In this document: piece by piece, positions 1,928-7,365 of the stretch | Layout of the letters: the number at the start of each line of letters is the position of its first letter | Numbering within the stretch: the stretch's first letter is position 1 | Source: a virus | Virus record (IMG/VR): IMGVR_UViG_3300008116_000135 | Coordinates: 1-35,484 of that record | DNA: 35,484 bases | Strand: one strand, 5' to 3' | Position numbers and translations under genes: made by a program | The notes under the pieces: generated by a model | Databases searched by the model: none | Told to the model about the DNA's origin: nothing | What the model saw: the letters and a program-made list of their open reading frames with translations, nothing else

Positions 1928-1953
1928 AAGAGGGGGCGATTGCCCCCTTTTTT
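1928..1953 (+). terminator. Intrinsic terminator after gp32, shared with the convergent gene
   Basis: GGGGGC (1932-1937), loop GATT and GCCCCC (1942-1947) form a GC-only stem, extendable by A-T pairs, and are followed by six T (1948-1953). This is a textbook rho-independent terminator for gp32. The T tract overlaps the stop codon (1952-1954, minus strand) of the convergent gene. On the minus strand the same stem is followed by CTCTTTTAC, so it may also terminate leftward transcription, less efficiently. Confidence 0.92.
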
Positions 1954-4861
1954 ATGTTAAAAATGCACCGGCACTTCTATGGCCAGAAGCAGAAGCATAT
2001 GCTTTTGAATGTTCTGTTACTGGTCTCATAAATCCTGTTGAGCCAAAATAGTGTTCTTCGTCTGTTGGTGTGGCTATGAAGCCAGTACTTTTTTGACTAT
2101 AATTTGGTGCAATATTTGTTCTTTTTGCTGGTTGTGATAATTGAGCTAGTTTATGATTTTCTACATGTGGTTGGATTGAAGCTCTTTGGTTCATTATGTC
2201 ATTTTGAGACATGTTGTTTAATTGTGCGCCAGGAACGCCCATCATATTACCTAGATTACCAACTTTCATATCTGCTGACATACTTGCTAATGCACTACCT
2301 ATCATAGGAGCCATCATTTTACCCATACCGCCTGGTATCATACCTCCTAACATATTTCCCGCCATCGAAGCCATGCCCATATTTGATGATGCACCACCAG
2401 ATGATGCATTATACATTTTAGGACCAATGTTTGGTTGTGGTGATAATGAAGGTTCTGCTGGTGCTTGTTGTCTTTGACCTGCTCCTCCTGTATTTGGTCC
2501 TAACCCTGGTGTTGCACTACTTGGTGAACCTTGTGGTTGTTGACCTGGTTGCTGTTTTGATGTTGGAACATTTCCACCACCAGCCCTTCTTATAGATAAT
2601 AATTCACTTCCTGGAGAGTTTATATTTCTTGATGAAACAGAAACTTGCCCTCCACTGTTTCTATCTGATTGATTACCACCAATAATAGTTATACTATCTC
2701 CAGATATTGATTTGACAAACCCCACATGCCCCTGACCATTTCTATTAAATACTGCAATATCTCCAGGCTGGACTTGTTTTAGATCACCCTGATTGCTTGC
2801 TCTATCCCAAACTGTACCACCATAACCTAAGAAACTTCGTGCAGCATCTGAGCCTGTTCCTTTCATTCCAGAACTTCCTAATACACCATTCACAAATGCA
2901 GCACACCATGGAGTTTTTTTAATGTTTATCGGATGATGATATCTTCCAATAAACTGTTGTAATTCTTCTTGTGCATTAGCTTCACTTTTTCCTAAAAACT
3001 TTTGTGCTACTTCAAGAGTACTACCACCCGTAGATGTTGCATTTTCATTTTTATTGGTAGATGATATATTTTCATTTTTGTTAGTAGGTGTTATAGTTTC
3101 AGTTTTAATAGAGACAGGAGTTATACCAGTGCCAGTACCAGTTCCAAAACTTGCTGGTGTTAAAGAAGGAGCCGATGACACAGGACTCAAATTATTTTTA
3201 ACAGCGTCACTTGTGTTTTCTACAGGTTTTGTTTTTTCAACTTTAATATTGGATGATGACTGTGAAGTTGTAGTAGAATTAAAATCTTTGTCTTTGCCAC
3301 CTTGTAATGCTTGTTGAGCAATTTTTAATTGTTCTGGATGTTTTTTGAATCCTTCCCATGCGCCTAAACCTTGTTTGTGTGCAATCCAAGAAGCCATTTT
3401 TTTCTGATTAACTTCATTGAATAAATCAGAACCTTTTAGACCAAGAGCCGCCATAGCTGCTTTTTGTGTTGTATTGACTATTTGAAATGCGCCTTTGGCA
3501 GAAGAATTTAATCCTTGCGCTTTTTTTACTTGCTCTCCCCATGCAAGAGCTTCATCCATTGTCATTTGAGATAATGGTTTTGGTGATTTCATATATCCTA
3601 ATGATGTATCATATGGATTACCGTGTTTTGCTGTTCCTTCAGCGTCTATAATTGCTTTATAAAACTCATTTGATTCGACTTTACCCCCGCCGGAAGACCC
3701 CGTTTCTGCGCTGCCAGTGAATTTTCTAGCATTTTGATTGTCTGCTGCTATACTAGTAGCATCCATTGGAGCAGTAAACCCTGTATAAGCTCCTTTTGTT
3801 TCTGGTGTTCCACCAAATGCAGGAGCAGATATATTGGGGTCAAATGTAGCACCTTGTGGTCCAGCACTTGTTGATCCGCCACTGGTACTGTCAGTATTAG
3901 CAGTTTTATTTTCTATAAAATCTATTCTATTACCTTCAAAAACAATATGAGGAGATTTAAATCTAATAGTATCGCTTGATTTAGATTCGAACAACATAGA
4001 ACCAAGACTTACAATACTCACATTTCTTGAAGAATCAATTTTATAATCACCGGCATTTATAAGAACATTATTTCTTTGTTTTTGTTTTTCTTGTTCTGTT
4101 AATACTTTTTCAGACTGTGTTGTTTGTTGTGTTTGGCCATTCCAAAAACTATGTTCTCTACCCCACTTGGCCATCCCTGGATAATTTTCAGCAGTATAAC
4201 CTAACCCCTTTCTTATAGGACTTAGTATTTTATTAATAGCATCTCCAAAAATATAACCAGCGATAGAACCAATAGCGGTGCCCGCAATAATAGGTGCCGC
4301 TATTGGGGCTACTCTTGCTCCTATACTTCCGACACCAGTTGCCATTCTTCCTAGAAGACCACCTGATCTTCCTAAAAGACCCTTTCCTAAACTTAATTTA
4401 TCAAATAAACTACTCTTTTCAACATTCTGAACACCTTCAGTTTGTTGAGGTTGAGATATTGTTTCTATTGCATTATTTTGTTTATTTTCATTCACCATAT
4501 ACATCAAACGATTTACATCGTGAAGAATATATTTTTGAGATAATTGAATATTGTCTAATTTATAATCAATTGATTTAAAAACATAATTTGCTTGATATTT
4601 TTGAGCATCTTTTTTAGCGTCATTTACAGCTTTTTCTGTTGATGCTATATTTTCGTTTTGTTGATTTATGTCTTTCTTTATATCACTTAATTCATCTTTT
4701 TTTTCCTCTGGTGGGCGACTTTCAACTCTTTTTCTTAAAGCGGAACCGAAATTTCCTAGACTACCATATAGTTCGTCTTTGGCTACGTCCTTTGCAGCGC
4801 CGCCAACCATTTTTGTACCAGACCAAAGTTTAGAACCTATATTTGCAAGTAATCCAGCCAA
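1952..4861 (-). CDS. Large virion protein with two cell-wall hydrolase domains (muramidase/transglycosylase-like and CHAP/NlpC-like)
   Basis: A 969-residue protein, last gene of the leftward baseplate operon. Visible regions in order: N-terminal AGLLANIGSKLW segment; charged coiled-coil-like region (about 50-145); Gly/Ala-rich hydrophobic segment (about 160-208) that could contact a membrane; a short beta-rich piece (265-320); Ser/Gly linkers; a lysozyme/transglycosylase-like domain (about 397-520) with IIDAEGT (candidate catalytic E408) and KGAFQIVN (456-463); a second linker; a cysteine-peptidase/amidase-like domain (about 615-758) with PWCAAFVN (C653), GHVGFV (H712) and GGNQS (N730); then a Gln/Pro-rich and Met/Gly-rich C-terminus. 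The gp5-type proteins of this phage lack a lysozyme domain, so this protein probably does the local peptidoglycan cutting during infection. It is not an ordinary endolysin, since it is far too long and sits among tail genes. AAGGA lies upstream of the ATG. Exact family of each domain is inferred from motifs. Confidence 0.8.
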   Translation of the reverse strand: MAGLLANIGSKLWSGTKMVGGAAKDVAKDELYGSLGNFGSALRKRVESRPPEEKKDELSDIKKDINQQNENIASTEKAVNDAKKDAQKYQANYVFKSIDYKLDNIQLSQKYILHDVNRLMYMVNENKQNNAIETISQPQQTEGVQNVEKSSLFDKLSLGKGLLGRSGGLLGRMATGVGSIGARVAPIAAPIIAGTAIGSIAGYIFGDAINKILSPIRKGLGYTAENYPGMAKWGREHSFWNGQTQQTTQSEKVLTEQEKQKQRNNVLINAGDYKIDSSRNVSIVSLGSMLFESKSSDTIRFKSPHIVFEGNRIDFIENKTANTDSTSGGSTSAGPQGATFDPNISAPAFGGTPETKGAYTGFTAPMDATSIAADNQNARKFTGSAETGSSGGGKVESNEFYKAIIDAEGTAKHGNPYDTSLGYMKSPKPLSQMTMDEALAWGEQVKKAQGLNSSAKGAFQIVNTTQKAAMAALGLKGSDLFNEVNQKKMASWIAHKQGLGAWEGFKKHPEQLKIAQQALQGGKDKDFNSTTTSQSSSNIKVEKTKPVENTSDAVKNNLSPVSSAPSLTPASFGTGTGTGITPVSIKTETITPTNKNENISSTNKNENATSTGGSTLEVAQKFLGKSEANAQEELQQFIGRYHHPINIKKTPWCAAFVNGVLGSSGMKGTGSDAARSFLGYGGTVWDRASNQGDLKQVQPGDIAVFNRNGQGHVGFVKSISGDSITIIGGNQSDRNSGGQVSVSSRNINSPGSELLSIRRAGGGNVPTSKQQPGQQPQGSPSSATPGLGPNTGGAGQRQQAPAEPSLSPQPNIGPKMYNASSGGASSNMGMASMAGNMLGGMIPGGMGKMMAPMIGSALASMSADMKVGNLGNMMGVPGAQLNNMSQNDIMNQRASIQPHVENHKLAQLSQPAKRTNIAPNYSQKSTGFIATPTDEEHYFGSTGFMRPVTEHSKAYASASGHRSAGAFLT

Positions 4862-4866
4862 TTTAG

Positions 4867-5052
4867 TTATCCTTTAAATTTGTTTTGTTCTTCTTCTAAT
4901 TTCTTTAGGTGATCTTGTAATAATTCAACATATATATCTCTTTCATAAGGTATAAGGTTTTCTATTTCACTAATAGAATATTTGTGATGTTGGGCCATTG
5001 CAAAAATAGTCTTATAATAATTTTCAAGACTATTATGACTTAGCCCAGAGAA
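4867..5052 (-). CDS. C-terminal extension of gp26 in the -1 frame (probable frameshift product)
   Basis: The -1 frame is open from the slippery run to TAA at 4869-4867 and encodes 61 residues, starting FSGLSHNSLENYY and ending in a charged helix KKLEEEQNKFKG. It includes QHHKYS and PYERDIY, which resemble, from memory, the C-terminal part of full-length gp26 homologues in marine T4-like phages. There is an in-frame ATG at 4998, but no ribosome site before it, and the 18 residues upstream of it look coding, so independent initiation is the weaker explanation. The stop lies 5 nt before the ATG of the 969-aa gene. Joined to gp26 at the slippery site it would give a 295-aa protein. A missing T in the 8-T run (sequencing error or mutation) would look the same. 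Confidence 0.7.
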   Translation of the reverse strand, partial: FSGLSHNSLENYYKTIFAMAQHHKYSISEIENLIPYERDIYVELLQDHLKKLEEEQNKFKG

Positions 5053-5058
5053 AAAAAA
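5005..5058 (-). promoter_or_regulatory. Candidate -1 programmed frameshift signal: T-TTT-TTT heptamer plus downstream stem
   Basis: On the minus strand the gp26 frame reads GAT TTT TTT TCT, so bases 5058-5052 form T TTT TTT in the exact register of a canonical X-XXY-YYZ -1 slippery heptamer. The zero-frame stop (5042-5040) follows three codons later. The -1 frame is closed upstream by TGA at 5061-5059, so the two frames overlap only around this heptamer. A perfect 9-bp inverted repeat, AATAGTCTT and AAGACTATT with a 12-nt loop (5034-5005), lies 17 nt downstream. The stem is AU-rich and the spacer is longer than usual, which weakens it as a stimulator. Confidence 0.55.
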
Positions 5059-5753
5059 TCATTTAATGCATTTAATACAATTTTCCTTTCATTCCCAAAA
5101 TCATTTTTGTATTTAATTACATATTCTACTTTTGGTAAATTTGATGTGAATTCTCTAAATTTGTTAAAAGTATTAACATCTAAATTTTCAATAAATTCTA
5201 TTAATTCTTCTTTGTTAAAATCTCTTGCATAATAAACTTTATCGCCATCAAAGACAGTTTCGATACAATTGATAATTAAATGTTCAAAAAGTTCTGTCTC
5301 TGATTTATTTAAAAAGAAAGTGTCAGTGTATAATGTTGTGTCTGGATACTTTAAAGTAACACCTGTTTCATCATTGATGACTATTTTTTTATCAATATTT
5401 TCAGGGAATATAACTTTTACTTCATCCAAATTTATATCAAACTGATATATTTTTTCATCTTCGTTGTCTTTATATGCGACACGAGTGATGTTATTAATTG
5501 AAATCGCTCTTAGTCTGATGAATAAAAATTCTAAATCAAATATACATAATTTGTTAATATCAAAATCATCATCCATTATACAATTATTTACGACTTGTTT
5601 TATAGCATTTAAAATATCACCTTGATCACCGCTTTCACGTGCAATCAAAAGAATCTTTTCTTCTTTGACCAACATAGGTCTTACTTTAATTTTCTTTTTA
5701 GATGATGGTATAGTAACGTCAAAAACTGGTGTAGTGATCTTTGGTAAAGCCAT
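5040..5753 (-). CDS. 26: gp26-like baseplate hub assembly protein (T4_baseplate family), zero-frame product
   Basis: A 237-residue protein that I assign to the gp26 family. It begins ALPKITTPVFDVTIPSSKKKIKVRPMLV-type, a beta-rich start with a KVRP motif, then KEEKILLIARES (about 31-42), NNCIMDDDFDINKL and IFDLEFLFIRLRAISI (about 68-84), the most typical block. T4 gp26 (208 aa) is needed for assembly of the central baseplate hub. The reading frame ends in DFFSLG right after an 8-T run, and a further 61 codons lie in the -1 frame. The start ATG has GGAG about 7 nt upstream. It lies between the tail-tube-fold gene and the 969-aa hydrolase gene. Confidence 0.8.
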   Translation of the reverse strand: MALPKITTPVFDVTIPSSKKKIKVRPMLVKEEKILLIARESGDQGDILNAIKQVVNNCIMDDDFDINKLCIFDLEFLFIRLRAISINNITRVAYKDNEDEKIYQFDINLDEVKVIFPENIDKKIVINDETGVTLKYPDTTLYTDTFFLNKSETELFEHLIINCIETVFDGDKVYYARDFNKEELIEFIENLDVNTFNKFREFTSNLPKVEYVIKYKNDFGNERKIVLNALNDFFSLG

Positions 5754-5772: not shown

Positions 5773-6327
5773 TTAAACTGGCGCATATGTCCAGAATGTT
5801 ATTGTTACAGGTATTTTAATTATTTGATTTGTTGCACCCCAATCAAATCTCATATCACCGACAAAGATTGGGTATGCTTCTTTTAATTCTACAGCATTAG
5901 ATTTTTCACCTTTATTATCAAACGTTGTTATAACAACGCCACCTCTATATTGGTCTTTATATCCAACTTCAAAAGCTCCTGCCACTGGTGAATCACCAGC
6001 GCCAGAATTAAAAACTAAATCATTCCATCGTTTAAAGAACCCCCATGCAGCACCTTTTTCATCTCCTAATACTGTCATATTAACATCTGTGTATATTGAA
6101 TTGTATGGTTTCTTTTCGTATGGACCATATCCATATCTATGTACTTGATGTGTGGCTGTTGTTATACCAGGAAATACTACACTTTCACATCTATATGTTA
6201 ATGTTCTTTCGTAACCATTAGCATTAAGACTTGTTGGTGGTGTTATAGTTACTTCGAACTTACTAGCTCTTTGAAATTCACCTTTACGAAAAGTTTCGGA
6301 TTTAAATGTGTTTATATTAAATGACAT
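5773..6327 (-). CDS. Tail-tube-fold protein (gp19/gp54 type)
   Basis: A 184-residue protein with the layout of the T4 gp19 tail-tube family: KGEFQRASKFEVTI at the N-terminus, a CESVVFPGI segment (about 48-56; T4 gp19 has CKATALPAGI), a central beta region with VNMTVLGDE and a W-FFKRWNDLV helix, and a C-terminal EAYPIFVGDMRFDWG block followed by ITFWTY, which aligns with the end of gp19. T4 has two such proteins, gp19 (tube) and gp54 (tube initiator on the baseplate). Because it is grouped with gp4, gp26 and hub genes and not with a sheath gene, the gp54-type role is my preference, but gp19 itself cannot be excluded. The ATG directly follows the upstream stop (TAA-ATG), so translation is probably coupled. 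Confidence 0.7.
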   Translation of the reverse strand: MSFNINTFKSETFRKGEFQRASKFEVTITPPTSLNANGYERTLTYRCESVVFPGITTATHQVHRYGYGPYEKKPYNSIYTDVNMTVLGDEKGAAWGFFKRWNDLVFNSGAGDSPVAGAFEVGYKDQYRGGVVITTFDNKGEKSNAVELKEAYPIFVGDMRFDWGATNQIIKIPVTITFWTYAPV

Positions 6328-6924: not shown

Positions 6925-7365
6925 TTAAAATTTTATTCCTAATTCTTTTTCTGTTATAATCTGGAACTTCCATTTACGATCTTCACAGAAATTTTCAGCA
7001 GCTTTCCATTTACTACTATTTATGCCCCATGTCTGGACTTCGTTGATGTATCTTTTTGATATTTTTGATTGTTTTTTTGGTTCTTGTGTTTGAGCAAATG
7101 GCTTTATTTCTACTATGACCGTCTCTATGACGCCATTTCTATCTTTTCTTTTTATATAAAAATCAGGAAAATATCTGTGGATTTTGCCGTCAATAGGCGA
7201 TTTATATGGTATGAAGAATTCTTCTGACCCCCATTCCAGTATATCTGGATGAGAATCTAACCAGTTCATAAATACTAATTCCCATCGAGAACGATAAATA
7301 ATATTATTAATGTCACCTCTGTACTTTCGAGGGTTGTGTGGTTTAAAAAAACCTTTGTACGCCAT
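6925..7365 (-). CDS. 4: gp4-like head completion protein (nuclease fold)
   Basis: A 146-residue protein close in length to T4 gp4 (about 150 aa), which completes filled heads so that tails can join. It keeps the family start FKPHNPRKYRGD (residues 7-18) and IIYRSRWE. A PD-(D/E)XK-type nuclease core is visible: E29 in RSRWE, D68 in YFPDFYI, and E86-x-K88 in VEIKP. The C-terminal block NSSKWKAAENFCEDR with a following EKELGI also fits the family. First gene of the leftward operon; its ATG is 29 bp from a late-type box at 7394-7401 on its own strand. Ribosome site is weak (AGG). Confidence 0.92.
   Translation of the reverse strand: MAYKGFFKPHNPRKYRGDINNIIYRSRWELVFMNWLDSHPDILEWGSEEFFIPYKSPIDGKIHRYFPDFYIKRKDRNGVIETVIVEIKPFAQTQEPKKQSKISKRYINEVQTWGINSSKWKAAENFCEDRKWKFQIITEKELGIKF

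Follow-up and report, generated by a model that had tools for sequence, protein, structure and literature searches.

A probable programmed −1 frameshift linking gp26 to gp51 in an uncultivated T4-like virus and its relatives, with conserved RNA structure 3′ of the slip site

Vladimirov, Gautam and Davidson are said to have found that several groups of T4-like phages keep frameshifting and that the T4 group uses genes 26 and 51. In the passages of PMC10885494 and PMC12846349 that deal with these proteins, gp26 and gp51 of T4-like phages are the tail assembly chaperones TAC-N and TAC-NC, with credit to Vladimirov, Gautam & Davidson (2022, Virology 566:9–15). The passage in PMC10885494 has the short and the long form encoded as two genes in some T4-like phages, and that in PMC12846349 credits the poly-T slip signals of T4-like TAC genes to the same study. 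A 2016 review described G-T frameshifting as widespread “except T4” (PMC5009743). The locus described here resembles phage P2, where −1 slippage at TTTTTTG, a poly-T heptamer closing the gene for the short tail chaperone, yields E and E+E′; no downstream hairpin is present in P2 or its Burkholderia relatives, 3′ structures being rare at phage tail slip sites (PMC3091744), whereas such structure is strongly conserved here. It also resembles lambda with its short chaperone gpG and −1-extended gpGT; in lambda these are encoded between the genes for the tail tube and the tape measure (PMC5009743). Lambda has another type of tail, the phage described here being contractile-tailed. The slip heptamer of lambda gpG/gpGT also differs from T_TTT_TTT. 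A further likeness is to the TAC genes of the myophages of Pakpunavirus and Vandenendeviridae, which have a conserved −1 programmed ribosomal frameshift (PRF) at a poly-T (GTTTTT) motif (PMC12846349), although phage family and motif differ from those found here.

The window, i.e., the whole stretch of DNA that was analyzed, is the 35,484 bp record IMGVR_UViG_3300008116_000135 of an uncultivated T4-like virus, with tail, baseplate and ssDNA-binding genes. The features of the locus were as follows.

5773..6327, minus strand: tail tube-like protein, directly upstream of gp26 (phrog_45, E 1.6e-28; PF23849)
5040..5753, minus strand: gp26 ORF, 237 aa, predicted short tail assembly chaperone, TAC-N (PF12322, E 6.6e-51; phrog_150, E 1.1e-54)
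5059..5061, minus strand: TGA blocking the −1 frame immediately 5′ of the heptamer (from the sequence; −1 peptide “*FFF...”)
5052..5058, minus strand: slippery heptamer T_TTT_TTT (X XXY YYZ) in the gp26 frame (from the sequence)
5040..5042, minus strand: zero-frame stop TAA, the fourth codon past the heptamer, with three sense codons between (from the sequence)
4867..5052, minus strand: −1 extension of 61 codons plus TAA, gp51/TAC-C domain (phrog_634, E 2.8e-25)
4996..4998, minus strand: ATG, the earliest start-type codon in the −1 frame, within the conserved gp51 domain
1952..4861, minus strand: 969-aa ORF with a CHAP peptidase domain, directly downstream of the gp51 frame (PF05257, E 2.7e-10)

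On the minus strand gp26 ends in ...AAT GAT TTT TTT TCT CTG GGC TAA, with the heptamer inside a run of eight T (5058–5051). The −1 frame stays open to the TAA at 4869–4867, 61 codons beyond the heptamer, and the predicted products are 237 aa (gp26) and 234 + 61 = 295 aa (fusion). Heptamer position, frame, stop, upstream TGA and both product lengths had been given in the first-pass annotation, and all were confirmed from the sequence. Judged from sequence comparison, the locus is very probably a real and deeply conserved programmed −1 frameshift.

The −1 frame, which the first-pass annotation had treated as an extension, corresponds to a protein already known, gp51. Its residues 6–60 matched phrog_634, “baseplate hub assembly catalyst” (gp51), in a profile search (E 2.8e-25), and the frame also matched the last 50 positions of phrog_150, the profile for gp26 (E 1.2e-5). 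The gp51 frame was found by tblastn in 568 phage records. In Aeh1 (L004), Aeromonas phage 65 (L096) and S-H9-1 (L100), gp51 is unannotated yet present as a −1 ORF after the slip site; Aeh1 has been listed as being without gp51 (PMC3037559).

The 969-aa ORF stands in a gene order like that of P-SSM2 and Cr30, and Cr30 has a tape measure annotated for a gene close downstream. By position, a tape measure or hub protein fits this ORF; the profile search returned no tape-measure match for it and the CHAP domain instead. The ORF has a TTG start, a charged N-terminal region, a hydrophobic segment and the CHAP peptidase domain, and may join a tape-measure or hub protein to a cell-wall hydrolase. Elsewhere in the window, a gp4-like head closure protein (6925–7365, minus strand) matched the TnsA endonuclease N-terminal domain strongly (PF08722, 1.4e-23), and a truncated tRNA with its 5′ end cut lies at the contig edge (1–67, plus strand; Rfam RF00005, 30.9 bits), where ARAGORN made no call.

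When gp26 homologues were compared, as the first-pass annotation had proposed, the relatives were found to keep the slippery site. An in-phase T_TTT_TTN at the gp26 end and an uninterrupted gp51 in the −1 frame occurred together at 137 of 137 related junctions (57 from viral contigs and isolates and 80 from further contigs, a few loci being near-duplicates), the two Vibrio phages K364 and 1.255.O falling outside this count. The arrangement was present at every related gp26 end examined, save those of the T4 group and these two phages, which goes well beyond what chance would produce. Isolates with the heptamer infect Prochlorococcus, Synechococcus, Caulobacter, Rhizobium, Aeromonas, Vibrio and Stenotrophomonas, and include P-SSM2, Cr30, Rhizobium phage RHph_Y68, Aeh1, a KVP40-like vibriophage, DLP6 and cyanophages. 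Variation within the heptamer was confined to base Z (T, C, G or A) in 57/57 and 80/80 junctions. The codon preceding it stood for D, N, S, T, A or F and always had T as its third base, compared with a T-ending share of only 35–75% for such codons elsewhere in the same genes; an invariant T across six amino acids points to a constraint on the RNA and not on the protein. Between the heptamer and the gp26 stop there were 0–3 sense codons in nearly all relatives (up to 9 in L143 and L175), and the run comprised 7 T or more in most, some with TTTTTTC having only 6.

An internal Shine-Dalgarno-like stimulator lying about 10 nt upstream of the heptamer was also considered. It is strong in a subset of phages (P-SSM2, Cr30), and is not claimed because it is absent in the window and overlaps a codon-conserved E/R-G-L motif.

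The T4 group is arranged differently. T4 gp26 (208 aa) is paralogous to T4 gp51 (249 aa), each of them covering PF12322 (8.8e-64 and 3.9e-52, respectively), with the phrog_634 extension on gp51 only, and T4 gp51 spans the whole fusion in one chain. The heptamer was absent from gp26 of T4, Krischvirus, Aeromonas phage 31, Proteus phage phiP4-3, an Acinetobacter phage and Gelderlandvirus. Since the two proteins are paralogous, only gp51 has the extension and the heptamer is missing, T4-type phages have both forms, each from a gene of its own. In the window, by contrast, the heptamer is present in gp26, and there is one gp26-like place in the partial 35-kb record, the part of the genome outside of which could hold a second. 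In the tree, frameshift-type gp26s grouped together (99/99), as did the long gp51s (100/98), while the placement of T4-group gp26 was unsupported. The chaperones described for T4-like phages are the same proteins as those of the window, and both patterns, frameshift and two genes, were seen here. The T4-group gp26 and gp51 (T4, i.e., L086, as well as L091 and L092) have paired cysteine motifs, e.g., CTCG and CPECG, in the middle of the protein and near its end, which are missing from gp26 of the window; a zinc site gained or lost is possible.

The strongest rival holds that gp51 is synthesized as a small protein in its own right, either from its own start or through termination-reinitiation where gp26 stops, with the poly-T incidental. 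Many relatives do have gp51 annotated as a small gene of its own in database records, and in Cr30, RHph_Y68, phi-ST2, K364 and 1.255.O an ATG that shares bases with the stop of gp26 (TGATG/TAATG) would allow its separate synthesis. In K364 and 1.255.O (L094 and L095), the overlap is TAATG and gp26 ends in CTT TTT without the full heptamer, gp51 still being in the −1 frame; these two phages may have switched to reinitiation or else to a weaker slippage by a single tRNA. Nevertheless, no ATG, GTG or TTG stands ahead of the conserved gp51 domain in the window and in about 24 of the 57 relatives, and Aeh1, Aeromonas phage 65 and others likewise have no start codon before it. Because the first start of the −1 frame in the window lies inside that domain, a complete gp51 domain could not be made there by ordinary initiation, and separate initiation at the ATG at 4998 would yield a truncated gp51. 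The heptamer is moreover kept at the RNA level in all 137 junctions, and T4 gp51 is a full gp26-like protein with the gp51 domain in one chain. Separate synthesis is therefore unlikely, and frameshifting is the preferred reading of the locus.

The RNA 3′ of the heptamer was predicted to fold in the window as two nested stems.

5041..5047, minus strand: 5′ arm of the outer stem (TGGGCTA), after a 4-nt spacer from the heptamer (predicted fold)
5025..5034, minus strand: 5′ arm of the inner stem, 9 bp and one further pair (sequence and predicted fold)
5005..5014, minus strand: 3′ arm of the inner stem (sequence and predicted fold)
4991..4997, minus strand: 3′ arm of the outer stem (TGGCCCA; predicted fold)

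The perfect 9-bp stem of the first-pass annotation (5034–5026/5013–5005) is real, but is only the inner part of a larger fold that includes the outer stem and a tenth inner pair (5025/5014). The minimum free energy of the fold was −19.9 kcal/mol, and among 500 synonymous recodings that kept the peptide, 11 were as stable. Over 57 loci, the RNA 3′ of the heptamer averaged −13.96 kcal/mol against −6.06 kcal/mol in synonymous recodings (t −11.8), and 76 other loci gave −13.55 against −6.59 kcal/mol (t −10.5), the loci being related to each other, so that these t values overstate independence and are not probabilities. Stretches of gp26 and gp51 not overlapping the structure differed from their recodings by at most 1.4. 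With dinucleotide shuffles, a null judged less fitting than synonymous codons, the mean z was a modest −1.1.

In the main register (27 loci), a 9-bp stem starts 7 nt after the heptamer. In these loci, 93.4% of cells were paired compared with 18–38% when the stem was slid, a figure that leans towards this register since the loci were picked for it, and there were 20 double-change cells against 7.7 in shuffles. Over all 42 colinear sequences the stem was 81% paired, compared with 16–62% when slid. At columns 20/65, exchange of a G-C for an A-U pair replaces Ser by Asn in one arm and Ala by Val in the opposite arm. RNAalifold gave a consensus at −17.7 kcal/mol for the 27 main-register sequences and none for all 42 gapless sequences, probably because registers differ among lineages: the register is shifted in L008, L009, L016 and the window, whose outer stem differs in register from the main family stem, and a local hairpin is found in P-SSM2, S-RSM4, L142 and L151. 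No Rfam family was found at the slip site and hairpin. The structure thus stands a few nt after the heptamer and is backed by compensatory changes, as expected of −1 PRF of the stimulator type. With moderate confidence, we favor the view that a dedicated, covarying 3′ RNA structure (the 9-bp stem ∼7 nt past the heptamer, with shifts or local hairpins elsewhere) controls the frameshift between gp26 and gp51 in T4-like phages and constrains residues of gp51 (Ser going with Ala or Thr, and Asn with Val), in which it would differ from P2-type tail-chaperone slip sites, and that it was not previously described.

Three further rivals have a lower probability. RNA polymerase slippage on the T run, by which mRNAs with an extra base would encode the fusion, would suit the 8 T of the window and the 7 T or more of most relatives, but the TTTTTTC relatives keep the system with no more than 6 T, what is preserved is the phase seen by the ribosome (X XXY YYZ) rather than run length alone, and the conserved 3′ RNA structure lies at a spacing typical of ribosomes; it is very unlikely. 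Still less probable is an intrinsic transcription terminator with no role in frameshifting: TTTTT does follow the inner stem in the window, but a scan with a loop limit of 8 nt gave no terminator-like site, the hairpin lies within the span of the conserved outer stem, which is held at a set position with respect to the heptamer, and termination there would cut off gp51. One T missing from the 8-T run through a sequencing or assembly error or a lone mutation, an alternative of the first-pass annotation for which a homopolymer of this length might speak, is effectively excluded, as the layout recurs with an identical frame relation at 137 junctions in independent phages and contigs, including TTTTTTC versions and finished isolate genomes.

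A chaperone pair like gpG/gpGT, made by −1 slippage, was proposed in the first-pass annotation and is the best reading of the locus, given the 137 junctions, the gp51 homology and the 3′ RNA structure. In all likelihood, gp26 is the TAC-N, and the gp26-gp51 fusion made by −1 slippage the TAC-NC, of a T4-like myophage. The fold of gp26 is consistent with this. The AlphaFold2 model (pLDDT 87.5) resembled the HK97 tail assembly chaperone 2ob9_A in its N-terminal domain (Foldseek probability 0.84, E 0.79), and against 2ob9 the model gave a VIA Z of 7.9 with 84 residues aligned at an rmsd of 3.9, which is supportive and not decisive. That domain also matched a protein of a PICI-like element, and solved structures searched by sequence returned no phage relative.

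We infer that slippage occurs, the rate that it would have and the roles of both products as follows. While gp26 would serve as the short chaperone, a minority of ribosomes on GAT TTT TTT, delayed by the 3′ hairpin, would slip back by one base and read on in the −1 frame into gp51, giving a 295-aa TAC-NC beside the 237-aa gp26. The slip frequency would set the ratio of TAC-N to TAC-NC, and, on the model of lambda gpG/gpGT, the short protein and the gp26-gp51 fusion would act jointly in tail assembly, both loading the tail tube on the tape measure or hub. The function of gp26, called poorly understood in the first-pass annotation, is better understood than that, the TAC-N/TAC-NC role having already been proposed.

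The gp26/gp51 frameshift system is therefore already known and the window adds an uncultivated member to it, while the conserved 3′ structure may be new. For the T4-like phages, the results mean that one gene with two products is entered in many database records as a “gp26” plus a “missing” or truncated “gp51”, which explains cyanophage gp51 looking ∼200 aa too short and Aeh1 seemingly having none (PMC3037559). The T4 relatives found here are no exception to frameshifted tail chaperones, the two genes of T4 carrying the same two forms, and the conserved hairpin provides a natural series of stems for gauging how RNA structure sets the chaperone ratio.
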